A stretch of DNA of 64,000 nt. It comes from Sphingobacterium sp. lm-10 (GTDB lineage Bacteria > Bacteroidota > Bacteroidia > Sphingobacteriales > Sphingobacteriaceae). A program made the translations under genes and the position numbers. The notes below the pieces were generated by a model. The model saw nothing but the letters and a program-made list of their open reading frames with translations. It searched no databases and was not told where the DNA came from. Where the stretch lies: positions 1,302,001-1,366,000 of the forward strand of contig NZ_JAMJWC010000001.1 of the NCBI RefSeq assembly GCF_023554555.1. The letters run 5' to 3'. Positions 31,576-37,990 of the stretch are shown piece by piece; the stretch's first letter is position 1; each line of letters opens with the position of its first letter.

Positions 31576-32571
31576 CTAGTGCTTTCTACTCTTTAAGATG
31601 CGACCTGCATCTGTCACAAAAATATAATGGTAACCGGGGAAAGCTTTCATCAAAGCTTTCCCTTTTTCACGCCCCAATACCATGATGGATGTGCTCAGCG
31701 CATTGGCCATTTCGCACGACGGTCCGTATATACTGACACTGGTAAGGCCAGTAGATGGGTATCCAGTCTTGGGGTTAATAATGTGCGCATACCGAGTACC
31801 CGCTATTTCGGCGTATTTCTGATAACTGCCTGAGGTAGCCACCGCCTCCTCCTCCAGCTTCAAAACCTGTATCATTTTATGTGGACGAAACGGATGATTC
31901 AGCCCGATCTTCCAATACTGCTTTTGTGGAGGTGCTCCCCAAGTCGCCAAGTCGCCAGAAGCATTAACGATCCCACCTTTTACCCCCAGCTTTTGCATCA
32001 ATTCTCGTCCCTTGTCGGCTGCATAACCTTTCCCAATGGATCCAAAGCCAATCTTCATGCCTTTCTTGCTCAGGTAAATGCTCGAGGCGGCACTGTCCAA
32101 TACGATGTATTGATATCCTACGTGCGCTATACTTCGTTGTACCATTTCCTCCGTTGGCAATTCATTCATGCTGCCATCAAATCGCCACACCTGATCCAGT
32201 CCGGCCACGCTAATATCAAAAGCGCCATCCGATAGTTGAGAATACATCAGTGCCCGCTTTGTCAGTTCAAATACTTCTCGATCTACCACGACAGGACGAG
32301 CTCCTGCCTGCTGATTCACTCGCGATATGGGGGTGTGCGGTTGCCATTCCGAGATCAGGTTTTCGATACGGATTACTTCTGCAATGACCTGATCAATATG
32401 TTGATTCGCCTGTGCAGAATCCACGTCAACGATACTGATATCGAAAACCGATCCCATCAAAGTGGCCTGTCGGGTAAGCAGGATCTCCTGCCCCATCAGT
32501 GCATGGCTAGTGATGACTAAAGCACCAAACACCAACGCCTTCCGGCATGTATGCAGCCATCCAGCATTCAT
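31576..32571 (-). CDS. apbE: FAD:protein FMN transferase, exported
   Basis: 331 residues with an N-terminal signal peptide (about 1-27). ApbE features are clear: GSVFDISIVD near the start, the FAD-binding stretch GSIGKGYAADKGRELM with GGIVNASGDLATWG, and HIINPKTGYPSTG with the metal-binding region after it. It transfers FMN from FAD onto a Thr or Ser of partner proteins in the periplasm. Its ATG overlaps the stop of the upstream PepSY-flavoprotein gene by one base. The likely client in this operon is the DUF2271 protein two genes upstream. Confidence 0.94.
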   Translation of the reverse strand: MNAGWLHTCRKALVFGALVITSHALMGQEILLTRQATLMGSVFDISIVDVDSAQANQHIDQVIAEVIRIENLISEWQPHTPISRVNQQAGARPVVVDREVFELTKRALMYSQLSDGAFDISVAGLDQVWRFDGSMNELPTEEMVQRSIAHVGYQYIVLDSAASSIYLSKKGMKIGFGSIGKGYAADKGRELMQKLGVKGGIVNASGDLATWGAPPQKQYWKIGLNHPFRPHKMIQVLKLEEEAVATSGSYQKYAEIAGTRYAHIINPKTGYPSTGLTSVSIYGPSCEMANALSTSIMVLGREKGKALMKAFPGYHYIFVTDAGRILKSRKH

Positions 32572-34787
32572 TAGTAGCAGTCTGTTAAAAGTTGCCCTTT
32601 GCTTCGGTAATGTTCTAGGTTCGCTAGGCCGGCATAGTGCAAAATAGCTTCCAAAATTACTTCTACATCACGTTGCATTTGCAGCGCGCCACAGATCATG
32701 ATCACGCCGCCATCTCGTAGCAGTTGTTCAAAGTAGTTCGAATCCTGTCGAATTAGATCCAGTACGTACTGACTACTCTTCTCCCGGGAATAGGCGACAT
32801 GATAGGATGACAGTTGTCGCTTCGCTATCTGCTGATTAGCAAATGCGGCATATTCCTCATTAGAGGGCGTCTTGTACCGAAATCCGGCATACAAACGGAT
32901 AGATCTTTTCTTTTTATTAGCGTCTACCATTCCCAGAAAAGGTGCTATGCCTGTTCCATTAGCCACCATGGCTATTGGTTTCGACTTCTTCGGCAGGTGG
33001 AAGTTGGGATTCGGCAGCAAACGAGCCGATAAACGATCACCTGCTGCCAGGCAGTGTAAGTAGCCGGAGCCTAACCCTTCTGGATGAAGTTTGACGATGA
33101 GTTGGATCTTTCCGCCCGTTAAACCGATCGAATAAAACCGTTCCTTCGCATCATTGTCCGGATAGATGGCCAACAGATCCCCAGAAGCAATACGGAGGCG
33201 CTTTTTGGGTTTTAGAATAACCTTAAACACGGGATCGTGATCGCTGATTACGGCGGTTTTGGAGATTACGGTCAGTTGGTGTAACGGTGGTTGCGCCGAA
33301 GCATATACGGTTTCGGCTGTCGCTAAGGTCATCAGCGTTTCCTTACTCCATTCCTGCGCCCAAGCCACCACATCTGCGGTTGATTTTTCGTTAACGGTGT
33401 GCAAAGGTAGTGTACGCTTCGCCCAAGCCTGCGATTCTAATACCGTATCGATATGATATGCAAATGCGCAAAAATCCGGATAGGATCGAGATCCAAATCC
33501 CAAAACGGAAAAACCGATCGGTTGCTGCTGGAGAGAGGCAGACAAGAGCTGCTCGAATTTCTTTCCGTTGCTCGGCGCTTCGCCCAATCCGTAGGTACAG
33601 GTGAAGATCACCATTTCCCGCGCTTTGGGATAAACGGTATATTGATCCATATTGGTGAGCAAAACACGTTCGCCCTGATCCAGTAATTGCTTAAATACCC
33701 GGTTGGCCATGGCCAAGGTACTGCCATTTTCCGAGCCATACAGTAAGATGATCTCGGCATTATGAGCGCGATATTTATTTTTGATCTTTGTGCCGGTTCT
33801 GCGAAATGTAATAACAAACCCCGAATAGATAAAGAAGAGAATATTTAATGCCCCTAAGCCTAAAATAACAGCCCATACCCGATTAGTTTGTCCGGTATGT
33901 AAATCCAAACTCAGTTTTTCCCAAACAGCAGCGTAGGCATAGCGTGTTTCTTCCACAACCTCACCACTTATTTGATGCACCGTAACTTGCCGATCCGTTA
34001 AAGTAAGTACAAAGTATTCCTCTGGATCGTCTTCCATAAAAGGAAATTCCAGCCGTTCGACCTCGTCCAGCATAATTTCTTGAAAAATCGGAAAATCTGC
34101 CGGCATCAATTGCTTCTCACCCCACTCTTCTGCTGTACGCTCCTCCAAGTTATATTCTTGTCGCAGCTCTGGCTTAGTCAAGATACCTGTCCTCACAAGA
34201 AAAAGATAGGTCCCTGTTAGGGAAATCATCAGGACAGGAATGAGCATAAACCTGCCACTTACAATATGGAAATATTGTGCGAAGAAGTCCCGATGTACTT
34301 TTCCAAAGAAATGTCGCCAGCCTTGTTGTCTTTTAACGATCAGAAGGATACCGGTAAGGGTAATCAGCAAGAGTAGGAAAGAAACCACGCCGACTACAAT
34401 ACGCCCTGTTTCATGCAGAAACAACGACCGGTGTAAGGTGGTCGTCCATTGGATGAAGTCGCTCTTCTTTGCCACAGGCCCCAACAGTAATCCGGTATGA
34501 GGATCAATGTATCCTTTTACTGTCTCACTCTCCTCGTCCAGCGCATCTATGTATACCCGGGATTGCTTATCCACCGACAGCTCGATAATCTCCGGGTATA
34601 GATTCTTAACAACCTGCACAGTTTGGGCGACGGAGAGACTGTCTAAACTCGTGGATCGATACGAGCTACTATTATCCTCCACCGCATCATAAGCAAGTAT
34701 AACACCGGTAAGCGATAGTATGAGTAAGAACAAGGAGGATATCAACGCTAACAAAAGGTGCGCGTACCTCCAAACCGATAACGTCAT
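32571..34787 (-). CDS. PepSY-membrane flavodoxin/NAD(P)H reductase fusion
   Basis: 738 residues. N-terminal PepSY-TM part with four or so transmembrane helices (first at about 10-33, others about 138-160, 185-210 and 305-330) and a periplasmic PepSY domain; cytoplasmic flavodoxin domain (LLYGSENGSTLAMANR, about 350-490); then a ferredoxin-reductase-type FAD/NAD(P)H module with RFYSIG, GTGIAPF and the NADPH-site MICGALQMQRDVE. It resembles a cytochrome P450 reductase joined to a membrane electron conduit. It should take electrons from NAD(P)H in the cytoplasm across the inner membrane, probably to a flavinylated periplasmic carrier or ferric siderophore. Second-last gene of a four-gene operon. 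Confidence 0.92.
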   Translation of the reverse strand: MTLSVWRYAHLLLALISSLFLLILSLTGVILAYDAVEDNSSSYRSTSLDSLSVAQTVQVVKNLYPEIIELSVDKQSRVYIDALDEESETVKGYIDPHTGLLLGPVAKKSDFIQWTTTLHRSLFLHETGRIVVGVVSFLLLLITLTGILLIVKRQQGWRHFFGKVHRDFFAQYFHIVSGRFMLIPVLMISLTGTYLFLVRTGILTKPELRQEYNLEERTAEEWGEKQLMPADFPIFQEIMLDEVERLEFPFMEDDPEEYFVLTLTDRQVTVHQISGEVVEETRYAYAAVWEKLSLDLHTGQTNRVWAVILGLGALNILFFIYSGFVITFRRTGTKIKNKYRAHNAEIILLYGSENGSTLAMANRVFKQLLDQGERVLLTNMDQYTVYPKAREMVIFTCTYGLGEAPSNGKKFEQLLSASLQQQPIGFSVLGFGSRSYPDFCAFAYHIDTVLESQAWAKRTLPLHTVNEKSTADVVAWAQEWSKETLMTLATAETVYASAQPPLHQLTVISKTAVISDHDPVFKVILKPKKRLRIASGDLLAIYPDNDAKERFYSIGLTGGKIQLIVKLHPEGLGSGYLHCLAAGDRLSARLLPNPNFHLPKKSKPIAMVANGTGIAPFLGMVDANKKKRSIRLYAGFRYKTPSNEEYAAFANQQIAKRQLSSYHVAYSREKSSQYVLDLIRQDSNYFEQLLRDGGVIMICGALQMQRDVEVILEAILHYAGLANLEHYRSKGQLLTDCY

Positions 34788-34797
34788 TGTTGGCGAA

Positions 34798-35283
34798 CTA
34801 TTGGGCTTTCGTCAGTTTTACAAACCGAATGTAACCCTTTCCATTTGTTCGTGCGGTAATACCGTCTGTCGTTAGTGATACTTCCGCATCTGCCGTGTGG
34901 TACTTCTGCTCTTCTACAGCCGACTCGAAACGTAATTTATAACCTTTGTTCAATTTATCGTTATCTATTTCCAGCACTTTTACCGCGCGATCACCACCAC
35001 CGACAGAAGCTCCAGTTACTGCGTGTAGCTTTTCCTTGGTTTTGTTTTGGAATTTGTCCCACTCTTTCAAAGTATTGTACCATTGTTTGTCTGGCCCCAG
35101 TACAGACAAGGTCTTTTCATAGCCACCTTGGGGGTTTATCAAAGAAATGATTACGTAGGCCGCTTCGCCTTCGTACGCATTCATTTGAATCATGCATTTA
35201 TATTTGCTGGACTGAGCAGCAACGGAAGACATAAAACCTAATCCTAAGGCCAAAGCCAACAGTATTTTCACAGTTGTATTCAT
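34798..35283 (-). CDS. DUF2271 periplasmic protein, putative flavinylated carrier
   Basis: 161 residues with a cleavable signal peptide (to about residue 23, SSVAAQ). The rest is a small beta-rich domain of the DUF2271 family, often coded with PepSY proteins and ApbE. The segment HAVTGAS has T90 followed by GAS, resembling the (S/T)GA(T/S) sequon to which ApbE attaches FMN. It would then be a soluble electron carrier between the PepSY reductase and an outside acceptor. Spaced 10 bp from the reductase and 4 bp from the ankyrin gene. FMN attachment is inferred, not shown. Confidence 0.82.
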   Translation of the reverse strand: MNTTVKILLALALGLGFMSSVAAQSSKYKCMIQMNAYEGEAAYVIISLINPQGGYEKTLSVLGPDKQWYNTLKEWDKFQNKTKEKLHAVTGASVGGGDRAVKVLEIDNDKLNKGYKLRFESAVEEQKYHTADAEVSLTTDGITARTNGKGYIRFVKLTKAQ

Positions 35284-35287
35284 TTGC

Positions 35288-36802
35288 TTATTTTAAGAAG
35301 TCTGTAGAAACTTCATTATTGGATAAAAAGTCATTTTCCTGCGCCAGATCGAACGCCGTTTCATCAAATTCGGTCTTCAACGACTTATCTGCTCCAAGCG
35401 CAACTAATGCTTTAAGCATTTTGTCATCTTTCGCAATCAAGGCTGCTTTGTGCAATGCCGTCACCCCTTCTTTATCCTGCGCATTGATATTAGCACCCAA
35501 CTTTGCAGCCTGCTGTACTAAATCTATATTTTCTTTCGCTACCGCTAAGTGGAAAAGGGAGCTGCCATCTGCTTGTGGCGCAGCAACATCAATTCCCTTG
35601 CTTTGCAGAAGCGCTAGCTTTTGTTCGAACGGGTTAGCGGATGTAGTCGCTGCACCTTCCCGACCGGCACCACGACCTGTAGCAGCACGATGGGAGTTGA
35701 ACCAATAATAGGCCAGATTGTGTCCATCTTTGTTTAACAAACCTGTCTCTGCGCCTTGTGCCAGCAATAGTTTTACATTTTCTGGCGAACCGTTGCCTAC
35801 TGCTAACGTCAGCGCTGATTCTCCTTTTTCGTTGATGGCATTTACCTCGCTACCAGCGCTTAATAATGCGGCTACAACCTCCTCATTTTGTCCAGCCGAT
35901 GCTAGCATCAATGCCGTAGTACCATCATTATTCGCTTTGGTTACCGGAACATTTTTAGCCAGGAAATAATTGATAATTTCCATATTACCTCCACGTACTA
36001 ATCCGTGCAACACGGTAGCACCATCGTGGCTGATCGCTTGTGGATTTAACCCCTTTTTCTCGACTAGATACTGGTAGGTATCCAAACCGTTGGATTCTCT
36101 ACGATATCCTTGGCTGGCAAAAAACAGTGCATTGTCAGTTAACTTTGATCCGCGTTGAATTAATTTTTCGATTAACTCAGGCTTGCCGGACTTCGCCGCA
36201 TAATCGGCTACAGTACGGCCGTGTGCATCTTTATCTTTGATGGAAAGACCTTTAGCTTCGAAGTATTCCACCAAAGCTAGATCTTCGTCACCCGGGGCAA
36301 CTAACATCAAAAGTGTGGCACCATCGGCATAGGTCTTTTTCGGGTCGACACCTTTCTCAAATAATGCATCGTATATTGCCGTATTGGTATTCCCATTGCC
36401 CGCCGCATACGCTGCAATAGGTACGCCATAACTGTCAGCATAGTTCACGTCAGCACCTTTCTTTAACAGGTAGTCTACGACTTCTTTATTGCCAGACGCG
36501 GCAGCCCAGTGTAAGTAATGGCGACTATGGTGTGTTTTCTTATCTACTGGGTTTCCCTCTTGGTCCAGCAAGTAGAATATAATATCGTTGGAAGCACCGC
36601 TATTGATTGCCATGGTGGGCACATCGAAAGACGCTGCATTGGATTCGGCAGGATTATTTCCTTCGGCTGTTAATGTTTTTACTTTATTCAGGTCTGGGTT
36701 CGTTCCCCAAAAATCGCGGCTCAAAAATACATTCTGGCTTTGTGCGGAGGCAGCACCTGTACTAAGACCAAAAAGTAGTAGGGCTAGTTGATAAGTCTTC
36801 AT
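35288..36802 (-). CDS. Exported ankyrin-repeat protein heading the redox operon
   Basis: About 504 residues from ATG 36802, chosen because it gives a clean signal peptide (MKTYQLALLLFGLSTGAASAQ); an upstream start at 36862 adds 20 unlikely residues. The mature part carries about ten to twelve ankyrin repeats (repeated GxTxLxxAxxxGxxxxxxxLLxxGAxxNxxN), with a spacer rich in Ala, Gly and Arg near residue 375-400. No catalytic motif. It starts a minus-strand operon with DUF2271, PepSY reductase and ApbE genes, 4 bp before the next. Possible scaffold for periplasmic redox proteins, like the ankyrin partner of the catalase. Confidence 0.87.
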   Translation of the reverse strand: MKTYQLALLLFGLSTGAASAQSQNVFLSRDFWGTNPDLNKVKTLTAEGNNPAESNAASFDVPTMAINSGASNDIIFYLLDQEGNPVDKKTHHSRHYLHWAAASGNKEVVDYLLKKGADVNYADSYGVPIAAYAAGNGNTNTAIYDALFEKGVDPKKTYADGATLLMLVAPGDEDLALVEYFEAKGLSIKDKDAHGRTVADYAAKSGKPELIEKLIQRGSKLTDNALFFASQGYRRESNGLDTYQYLVEKKGLNPQAISHDGATVLHGLVRGGNMEIINYFLAKNVPVTKANNDGTTALMLASAGQNEEVVAALLSAGSEVNAINEKGESALTLAVGNGSPENVKLLLAQGAETGLLNKDGHNLAYYWFNSHRAATGRGAGREGAATTSANPFEQKLALLQSKGIDVAAPQADGSSLFHLAVAKENIDLVQQAAKLGANINAQDKEGVTALHKAALIAKDDKMLKALVALGADKSLKTEFDETAFDLAQENDFLSNNEVSTDFLK

Positions 36803-37114
36803 ATATGATCTGGCTTTATTTATTATAAGTCTAATTAAAGCCAAACTTAACCAAATTATCAATAAATAGTGCTTTTAAATACGAAATAGTTACATAATGT
36901 CTTTAGTGTACAGTTAGATTGTCCGATTTCAATAAGAATATCGTTGAAAAAAATGTGGTGTTTACCACGCGAGAACGGGTATTTGGCGATACCATCATCC
37001 ATATCCTTCTGATCTTTATCCCAAAATTGCAGTGCGATCTCCCGGCTCTCCAGGAAGTCAATAGTTAGCGTCTACTCTATCGAAACTGATCTCCGAATTG
37101 ATTATAGACTCAGA
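36803..37114. other. Intergenic region with a possible coding fragment
   Basis: 312 bp between the ankyrin operon and the esterase. On the minus strand 36857-37063 is open for about 69 codons after a TAG, without a good start, and reads like real protein (ESREIALQFWDKDQKDMDDG, then YPFSRGKHHIFF). I do not recognise it. It may be the remnant of a gene or an upstream leader; the first part of the region also holds the ankyrin operon promoter. Confidence 0.35.
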
Positions 37115-37990
37115 TTATCGCTGAAAACTCTGTGAAACAAATGGCAGACAATCCAACAATGCCGATTGCCAATAGAGCCAATCATGTGCTCCATCTCTTA
37201 TTCTAAATTCAAGCGGAATTTTGGCGTTGCGCATGGCGCGAAAAAAATCGATATTGGAATCTAATAGGAAATCGTCATCGCCGCAATCTACAAACCAACG
37301 AATACTCCGCAAGGCCTCCTTCTGCTCTTCTGTGGCATTAATCACATAATCTACACAGCTATTTTCGATTACTGATTTAGTGAGCAACGCGCGCTTGGTC
37401 TGGCTGTTTTGATCCGTCTGATTGTTACGATTTTCAGGAAGGTCCATCAGTGCACTCATGGCGTACACCGATCCAAATAACTCTGGGTGACGTTGCCCAT
37501 AGGCTGTGCTTCCTCCTCCGCCCATAGATAGACCTGCTACGGCTCTATTCTGCTTATTGCCAATCACCCGGTACATACTTTCAATATGTGGTAAAAATTC
37601 TTTGTAAAAGAATTGCTCATAATTCCAACCGGGCATATCAAAATAACCGTTCCATTCCGTGTCTGGATTACCTCCAGCATTGGGGCTTACAATAATCATA
37701 TCCACGGATTCGCCACTTGCGGCCAATTGATCTTGCACCTGCTTTACGCTGGCACTTTCGAACCAGCTGCTGTTAATGCCAGACAAACCATGCAACAAAT
37801 ATAAAATAGGATATTTCTTGTCTGTGTTACTTTCGTAACCCTTCGGCAAGTAGATGGTATACGCCCGATCCGCATTTAGGATCTCGCTATGAATAGTATC
37901 CGTTTTTACTTGGCTTTTAAGGTTGGCCGTTTGGGCATGTGAGTTGAGGCCAAGCAGCAGAAATGTGTATAGGAATAGGAAGTTCTTCAT
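37115..37990 (-). CDS. Exported alpha/beta-hydrolase esterase (EstD/tributyrin type)
   Basis: 291 residues with a signal peptide (to about residue 20). The hydrolase core has the oxyanion sequence LLHGLSG (66-71), nucleophile elbow GLSMGG (S155), an acid in CGDDDFL (about D239-240) and H269 in GAHDW. This pattern fits the esterase/S-formylglutathione hydrolase-like putative esterase family, used for acyl esters on sugars or other small esters. The gene is alone on its transcript, with no glycan genes next to it. The substrate is unknown. Confidence 0.87.
   Translation of the reverse strand: MKNFLFLYTFLLLGLNSHAQTANLKSQVKTDTIHSEILNADRAYTIYLPKGYESNTDKKYPILYLLHGLSGINSSWFESASVKQVQDQLAASGESVDMIIVSPNAGGNPDTEWNGYFDMPGWNYEQFFYKEFLPHIESMYRVIGNKQNRAVAGLSMGGGGSTAYGQRHPELFGSVYAMSALMDLPENRNNQTDQNSQTKRALLTKSVIENSCVDYVINATEEQKEALRSIRWFVDCGDDDFLLDSNIDFFRAMRNAKIPLEFRIRDGAHDWLYWQSALLDCLPFVSQSFQR

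Follow-up and report, generated by a model that had tools for sequence, protein, structure and literature searches.

Flavinylation of DUF2271 proteins by ApbE has been shown, and a link between the accompanying PepSY proteins and iron argued, for the PepSY-like flavinylation systems (Meheust et al. 2021, PMC8238504); the first residue of the flavinylation target motif is usually Asp (PMC12052999). PepSY proteins are also part of two types of siderophore system, namely the XusABC xenosiderophore system of Bacteroides, which comprises a TonB receptor, a surface lipoprotein and a PepSY inner-membrane reductase (PMC13142918), and the HiuABC and FoxB siderophore reductases, in which a PepSY protein with two His-ligated heme sites is encoded next to a Fur-regulated TonB receptor (PMC13001220). 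In Riemerella anatipestifer the genes B739_0173-0177 were up-regulated under iron limitation (log2 values of 3.3, 3.6, 2.4, 3.1 and 1.0; PMC5429918), and Fur was found to repress B739_0173 and to bind its promoter (PMC7976709).

The window analysed here (a stretch of 64,000 nucleotides from Sphingobacterium sp. lm-10) carries a four-gene operon, three genes of which are known from the PepSY/DUF2271/ApbE flavinylation systems already published; the fourth, an ankyrin gene (ank), is the new point. A preliminary description had placed ank, DUF2271, PepSY-flavodoxin-FNR and apbE in this order on one strand with gaps of 4, 10 and -1 bp, which was found to be correct (all four are on the minus strand). 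The features are as follows:

37115-37990: gene for a secreted esterase, upstream of ank, that weakly matches an enterochelin esterase model
36816..36836, minus strand: operator palindrome, putative Fur box before ank, AATTAGACTTATAATAAATAA (consensus ATTTAGANTNANTNTAAATAA)
35288..36802, minus strand: ank, 504 aa, N-terminal signal peptide MKTYQLALLLFGLSTGAASAQ, no lipobox
34798..35283, minus strand: DUF2271 periplasmic protein, predicted flavinylation substrate, 161 aa (PF10029, E 1.5e-37), signal peptide, no lipobox
35005..35016, minus strand: TGAS flavinylation motif of DUF2271 (T90-S93), from a motif comparison among 93 homologues
32571..34787, minus strand: PepSY_TM, flavodoxin and NAD-binding protein, 738 aa (PF03929, 5e-34; PF00258, 8e-16; PF00175, 3e-8)
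31576..32571, minus strand: ApbE, predicted FMN transferase, 331 aa (PF02424, 2e-81), N-terminus hydrophobic

The esterase was considered as a part of the system and rejected, as its match to the enterochelin esterase model is weak, it is not a recurrent neighbour and the operator separates it from ank. Between the two (approximately 36885-37060, minus strand) lies an open stretch without a start codon (LTIDFLESREIALQFWDKDQKDMDDGIAKYPFSRGKHHIFFNDI...), possibly a gene remnant.

The explanation we favour, and regard as reasonably probable, is that this is an iron-repressed (Fur) operon for reductive periplasmic iron release, with the ankyrin protein as a dedicated subunit and most likely a docking scaffold. 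Ferric siderophore would be imported by a TonB-dependent receptor, whose gene adjoins the operon in relatives and is located elsewhere in the genome of this strain. NADPH would supply electrons to the FNR and flavodoxin domains on the cytosolic side of the PepSY protein; the electrons would then traverse the inner membrane via its two bis-His hemes and pass to FMN attached by ApbE to the serine of the TGAS motif of DUF2271. The FMN-bearing DUF2271 protein would reduce siderophore-bound Fe(III), the resulting Fe(II) would enter by FeoB, and the ankyrin solenoid would hold the small flavinylated DUF2271 protein near the PepSY domain and/or the acceptor. We infer the electron path, the acceptor and the role of ank alike. 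The electron-transfer module and its link to iron, both put forward in the preliminary description, are well supported by synteny, the common operator palindrome, the conserved heme-ligand His residues, the flavinylation motif and the Riemerella data; the outside acceptor proposed there, with ferric iron as an example, is now likely to be siderophore-bound ferric iron.

Homologues were surveyed in 201 genomes of the family (cut-offs of E<=1e-20 for ank and E<=1e-60 for PepSY-flavodoxin). DUF2271 was above the cut-off in 75 of these, as a stand-alone protein in 55 and in a fused form only (approximately 510 aa) in 20, and the genomes with an ank homologue (55/201), with PepSY-flavodoxin (55/201) and with stand-alone DUF2271 (55/201) proved to be identical sets. 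Among the same 201 genomes, ank was not found in those with fused ApbE-DUF2271 only or in those without DUF2271. All three proteins were missing from 11 Sphingobacterium genomes, so that the module is either there or missing as one whole. In one genome (G037) the ank-DUF2271 pair and the PepSY gene are on separate contigs, and another (G120) has a second ank-DUF2271 pair without PepSY.

In a survey of 395 genomes across the phylum a strong ank homologue was identified in 28, all of which have DUF2271 (28/28), while the five DUF2271 genomes without ank comprised four fused forms and one divergent copy. A second family (that of genome G304, probably Flavobacteriaceae) was sampled with 140 genomes, approximately one per genus; ank was present in 43 and DUF2271 in 42 of these 43, nearly always adjacent, the exception being truncated at a contig end, and of the five DUF2271 genomes without ank one has a fused form and one is just 88% complete. 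The co-occurrence counts are not independent, as the genome samples overlap slightly and the genomes are related; a hitch-hiking ank gene is nevertheless unlikely in view of the many genera concerned. The preliminary description had proposed a search for co-occurrence across Bacteroidota, with absence of the ankyrin gene from nearly all homologous clusters as the outcome that would speak against it; the opposite was observed, with ank accompanying practically every cluster of stand-alone DUF2271 and PepSY-flavodoxin-FNR and missing elsewhere. The periplasmic ankyrin-repeat protein is a near-constant fourth part of the PepSY-flavodoxin/DUF2271/ApbE system.

The order ank-DUF2271-PepSY-ApbE was kept in most of approximately 98 loci (including Sphingobacterium, Dyadobacter, Runella, Niabella and Chitinophagaceae), and ank and DUF2271 adjoin in some 40 further genera of the second family, which places the four-gene arrangement far beyond chance. 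Certain other genera of the family have ApbE inverted at the cluster end, and in a divergent group (L185-L190) it is located elsewhere in the genome with ank still in the cluster. Fused ApbE-DUF2271 proteins (L095-L114, ORFs of approximately 505 aa) are followed by a membrane protein of approximately 230 aa in 16/18 loci and have no ank, so that ank is tied to the variant with stand-alone DUF2271 and PepSY-flavodoxin-FNR and not to flavinylation generally. Several of these fusion proteins have no clean [S/T]GA[S/T] motif (TSSAT, TSAT). Two tandem ank genes were also seen in a distant Bacteroidota genome (G448, L193:86-3048), on a contig apart from that of the DUF2271-PepSY pair, with both at contig ends.

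The position of ank directly before DUF2271 in nearly all loci would also suit a different role beside the same electron module, in which ank assists the flavinylation of DUF2271 by ApbE as a chaperone or presentation factor and stands outside the working chain. Where ApbE and DUF2271 are fused no helper would be needed, which matches the missing ank, and there are ankyrin proteins that act as helpers of catalases, e.g. AnkB of Pseudomonas and Cj1386 of Campylobacter. We nevertheless consider such a cofactor-loading role fairly unlikely, given that ank is kept in the clusters without adjacent ApbE (L185-L190) and that DUF2271 of A. ursilacus was flavinylated in E. coli by its own ApbE alone (PMC8238504).

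The predicted substrate and its enzyme were compared across these loci. TGAS was present in 80/93 DUF2271 homologues, in agreement with the [S/T]GA[S/T] motif expected of a substrate in a PepSY-like flavinylation system, and the DUF2271 protein was modelled by AF2 with a pLDDT of 89, while a fold search with it gave no convincing PDB match. In the operon ApbE, His263 and Thr294 are kept and position 290 is Asn where Asp is usual; the activity of this enzyme is a prediction from sequence, and the departure at N290 counts against the explanation we favour. Asn was found at this position in 78/78 operon ApbEs and likewise in L256 and L257, two displaced copies of this type, whereas Asp was found in 15/15 other ApbEs that were examined in the same genomes; at the matching position T. 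pallidum-type Ftp and Thermotoga TM1553 have Asp as well. The Asp at this position binds Mg. For N290 of the window ApbE (31576-32571) the comparison loci were L241-L257. The first motif residue of DUF2271 was Ser in 67/93 homologues and Asp in 11/93, seven of the latter being at loci without adjacent ApbE (L185, L186, L188, L189, L190, L192 and L111). As the remaining four (L140, L142, L143 and L184) have an Asn-type ApbE, the covariation of ApbE Asn with DUF2271 Ser is no stronger than suggestive. At L189:7938-8441 and L111:7588-8076 the flavinylation motif of DUF2271 is replaced by VGET, and flavinylation may have been lost.

The 738-aa protein combines a PepSY_TM membrane part of the heme-b type with flavodoxin and NADPH-type FNR domains in the cytosol, and a PepSY-like protein (PF03929) is therewith encoded inside a flavinylation-associated cluster. 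Four His residues of the membrane domain (H10, H119, H174 and H297) are invariant, as expected of heme ligands. No solved PepSY chain was matched in the sequence search, so that equivalence to FoxB rests on the His pattern. The preliminary description had named NAD(P)H as the electron donor; the nearest solved relatives of the protein are P450 reductase and CysJ, which makes NADPH the more likely of the two.

The ankyrin protein has approximately 13 ankyrin repeats and an N-terminal cap, and was modelled by AF2 as a single solenoid (pLDDT 93.2) with a floppy loop at 376-387. Conservation is concentrated at the ends, in W32 of the cap, in H91, R94 and W99 of repeat 2, and in TEFDE...EN and a C-terminal FLK in 78/93 sequences. 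Such a pattern would suit a bridge that makes contact at both of its ends. The concave face was not better conserved than the convex face on average (0.59 vs 0.63), which counts against the explanation we favour, and the concave surface was discarded as a conserved sign of ligand binding. Two further candidate roles were rejected: a second flavinylation target (SGAS at 68-71 in the window protein is not conserved) and a redox protein (87/93 mature sequences are cysteine-free). It is improbable that ank is itself a periplasmic binding protein that passes a ferric siderophore or other acceptor to the reductase; in repeat 2, H91 is invariant and R94 and W99 are conserved, at positions in the finger and the inner helix, and relatives have a TonB receptor and a lipoprotein adjacent, but these residues form just one conserved patch in a sequence that otherwise varies and is almost cysteine-free, and fold searches matched generic, protein-binding ankyrin solenoids only. 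Among several possible roles, that of a dedicated periplasmic scaffold or docking subunit is the most likely.

Upstream of ank, the 7-mers ATTTAGA/TCTAAAT were counted far above their frequency in resampled sequence. The 21-bp palindrome (<=3 mismatches) was found in 74/98 ank upstream regions compared to 31/980 shuffled ones, and usually precedes ank by 20-130 bp; where it is missing, a receptor and lipoprotein are in many cases located in front, so that the promoter of those loci would be further up. In the genome of this strain (G000) there were 34 matches to the palindrome compared to 3 for the reversed pattern, mostly before iron genes, and the operon and the iron genes of the same genome have the operator in common, as would be the case in a Fur regulon. 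The genes behind the sites include approximately a dozen for receptors of the TonB-dependent or outer-membrane kind (with PepSY genes after two of these) as well as those for two FecI-type sigma factors, glutamyl-tRNA reductase (hemA) and CcmE, while a FecCD permease and a siderophore-interacting protein are located between two palindrome sites. A FUR-family gene and a 719-aa FeoB frame are present in the same genome. The palindrome sites are likely to represent an iron regulon, with Fur as the putative regulator; the Fur box named for R. anatipestifer is a different, classical one (PMC7976709). Approximately 20 putative Fur-box sites (e.g. L227, L229, L232 and L236), which precede genes for TonB receptors and sigma factors as well as hemA and ccmE, form a candidate Sphingobacterium iron regulon.

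As the operator also precedes hemA and ccmE-type genes, and is hence not limited to uptake genes, iron control could alternatively reflect the need of the module for heme and flavin, with another periplasmic acceptor (e.g. an oxidised protein or copper) being served. This is decidedly unlikely in view of the frequency of TonB receptors as neighbours and of the reduced EDTA fitness caused by transposon insertions in the Caulobacter PepSY/DUF2271/DUF4198 operon (PMC12004947). TonB-dependent receptors were the commonest recurrent neighbours (23 loci of one family and 11 of another), in raw counts that include some loci duplicated from two collections and for a class of protein that is numerous in Bacteroidota anyway. 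A lipoprotein of approximately 446 aa neighbours the operon in 21 loci; 14 of these have its gene immediately upstream of ank and in the same orientation. An AraC-type regulator was also recurrent in relatives. The lipoprotein is weakly DUF4374-like (1/16, E 9e-4); its assignment as XusB was rejected on this one weak match and the lack of any among PDB sequences. Neither a TonB receptor nor a DUF4374 lipoprotein, as would be expected of a Xus-type system, was found beside the operon in the window; the missing TonB receptor counts against the explanation we favour.

In a wider form of the proposal, which we advance tentatively as possible, ank would be an obligatory structural subunit of widespread Bacteroidota flavin-based periplasmic ferric-siderophore reductases with a private pair of ApbE (Asp->Asn) and DUF2271 (motif Asp mostly ->Ser). 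The results extend a recently recognised class of electron-transfer systems by a periplasmic component that is conserved but unexplained, and point to a testable function in iron acquisition across soil, aquatic and host-associated Bacteroidota, while the variant enzyme-substrate pair is of interest for flavin tagging. The literature search found no paper joining ankyrin with ApbE, DUF2271, PepSY or flavinylation; most subscription papers and supplements were outside its scope and an earlier mention is possible.

Compared to the PepSY-like flavinylation systems (PMC8238504), for which iron reduction has been proposed, the operon likewise has PepSY_TM, a TGAS-bearing DUF2271, ApbE and an NAD-binding domain in one cluster. 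It differs in that those systems often include DUF4198, whereas here an ankyrin gene is at the head with no adjacent DUF4198, and a flavodoxin domain is added to the FNR; the word 'ankyrin' was not found in the main text of that paper. Several relatives of the operon have a receptor and a lipoprotein directly upstream, as in XusABC, although neither flavinylation genes nor an ankyrin protein are described there (PMC13142918). The PepSY protein resembles those of HiuABC and FoxB in its two predicted His-ligated heme sites and in its association with TonB receptors under putative Fur control, while no fused flavodoxin-FNR, DUF2271, ApbE or ankyrin partner is described for these (PMC13001220). 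The R. anatipestifer cluster B739_0173-0177 is not described as a flavinylation module (PMC5429918, PMC7976709), but its genes are annotated as a TonB receptor, a hypothetical protein, an ankyrin protein, a predicted periplasmic protein and a 'nitric oxide synthase', a name that a flavodoxin-FNR protein can attract. By annotation and order this cluster matches the operon, which offers an explanation for a cluster known from the Riemerella iron studies.
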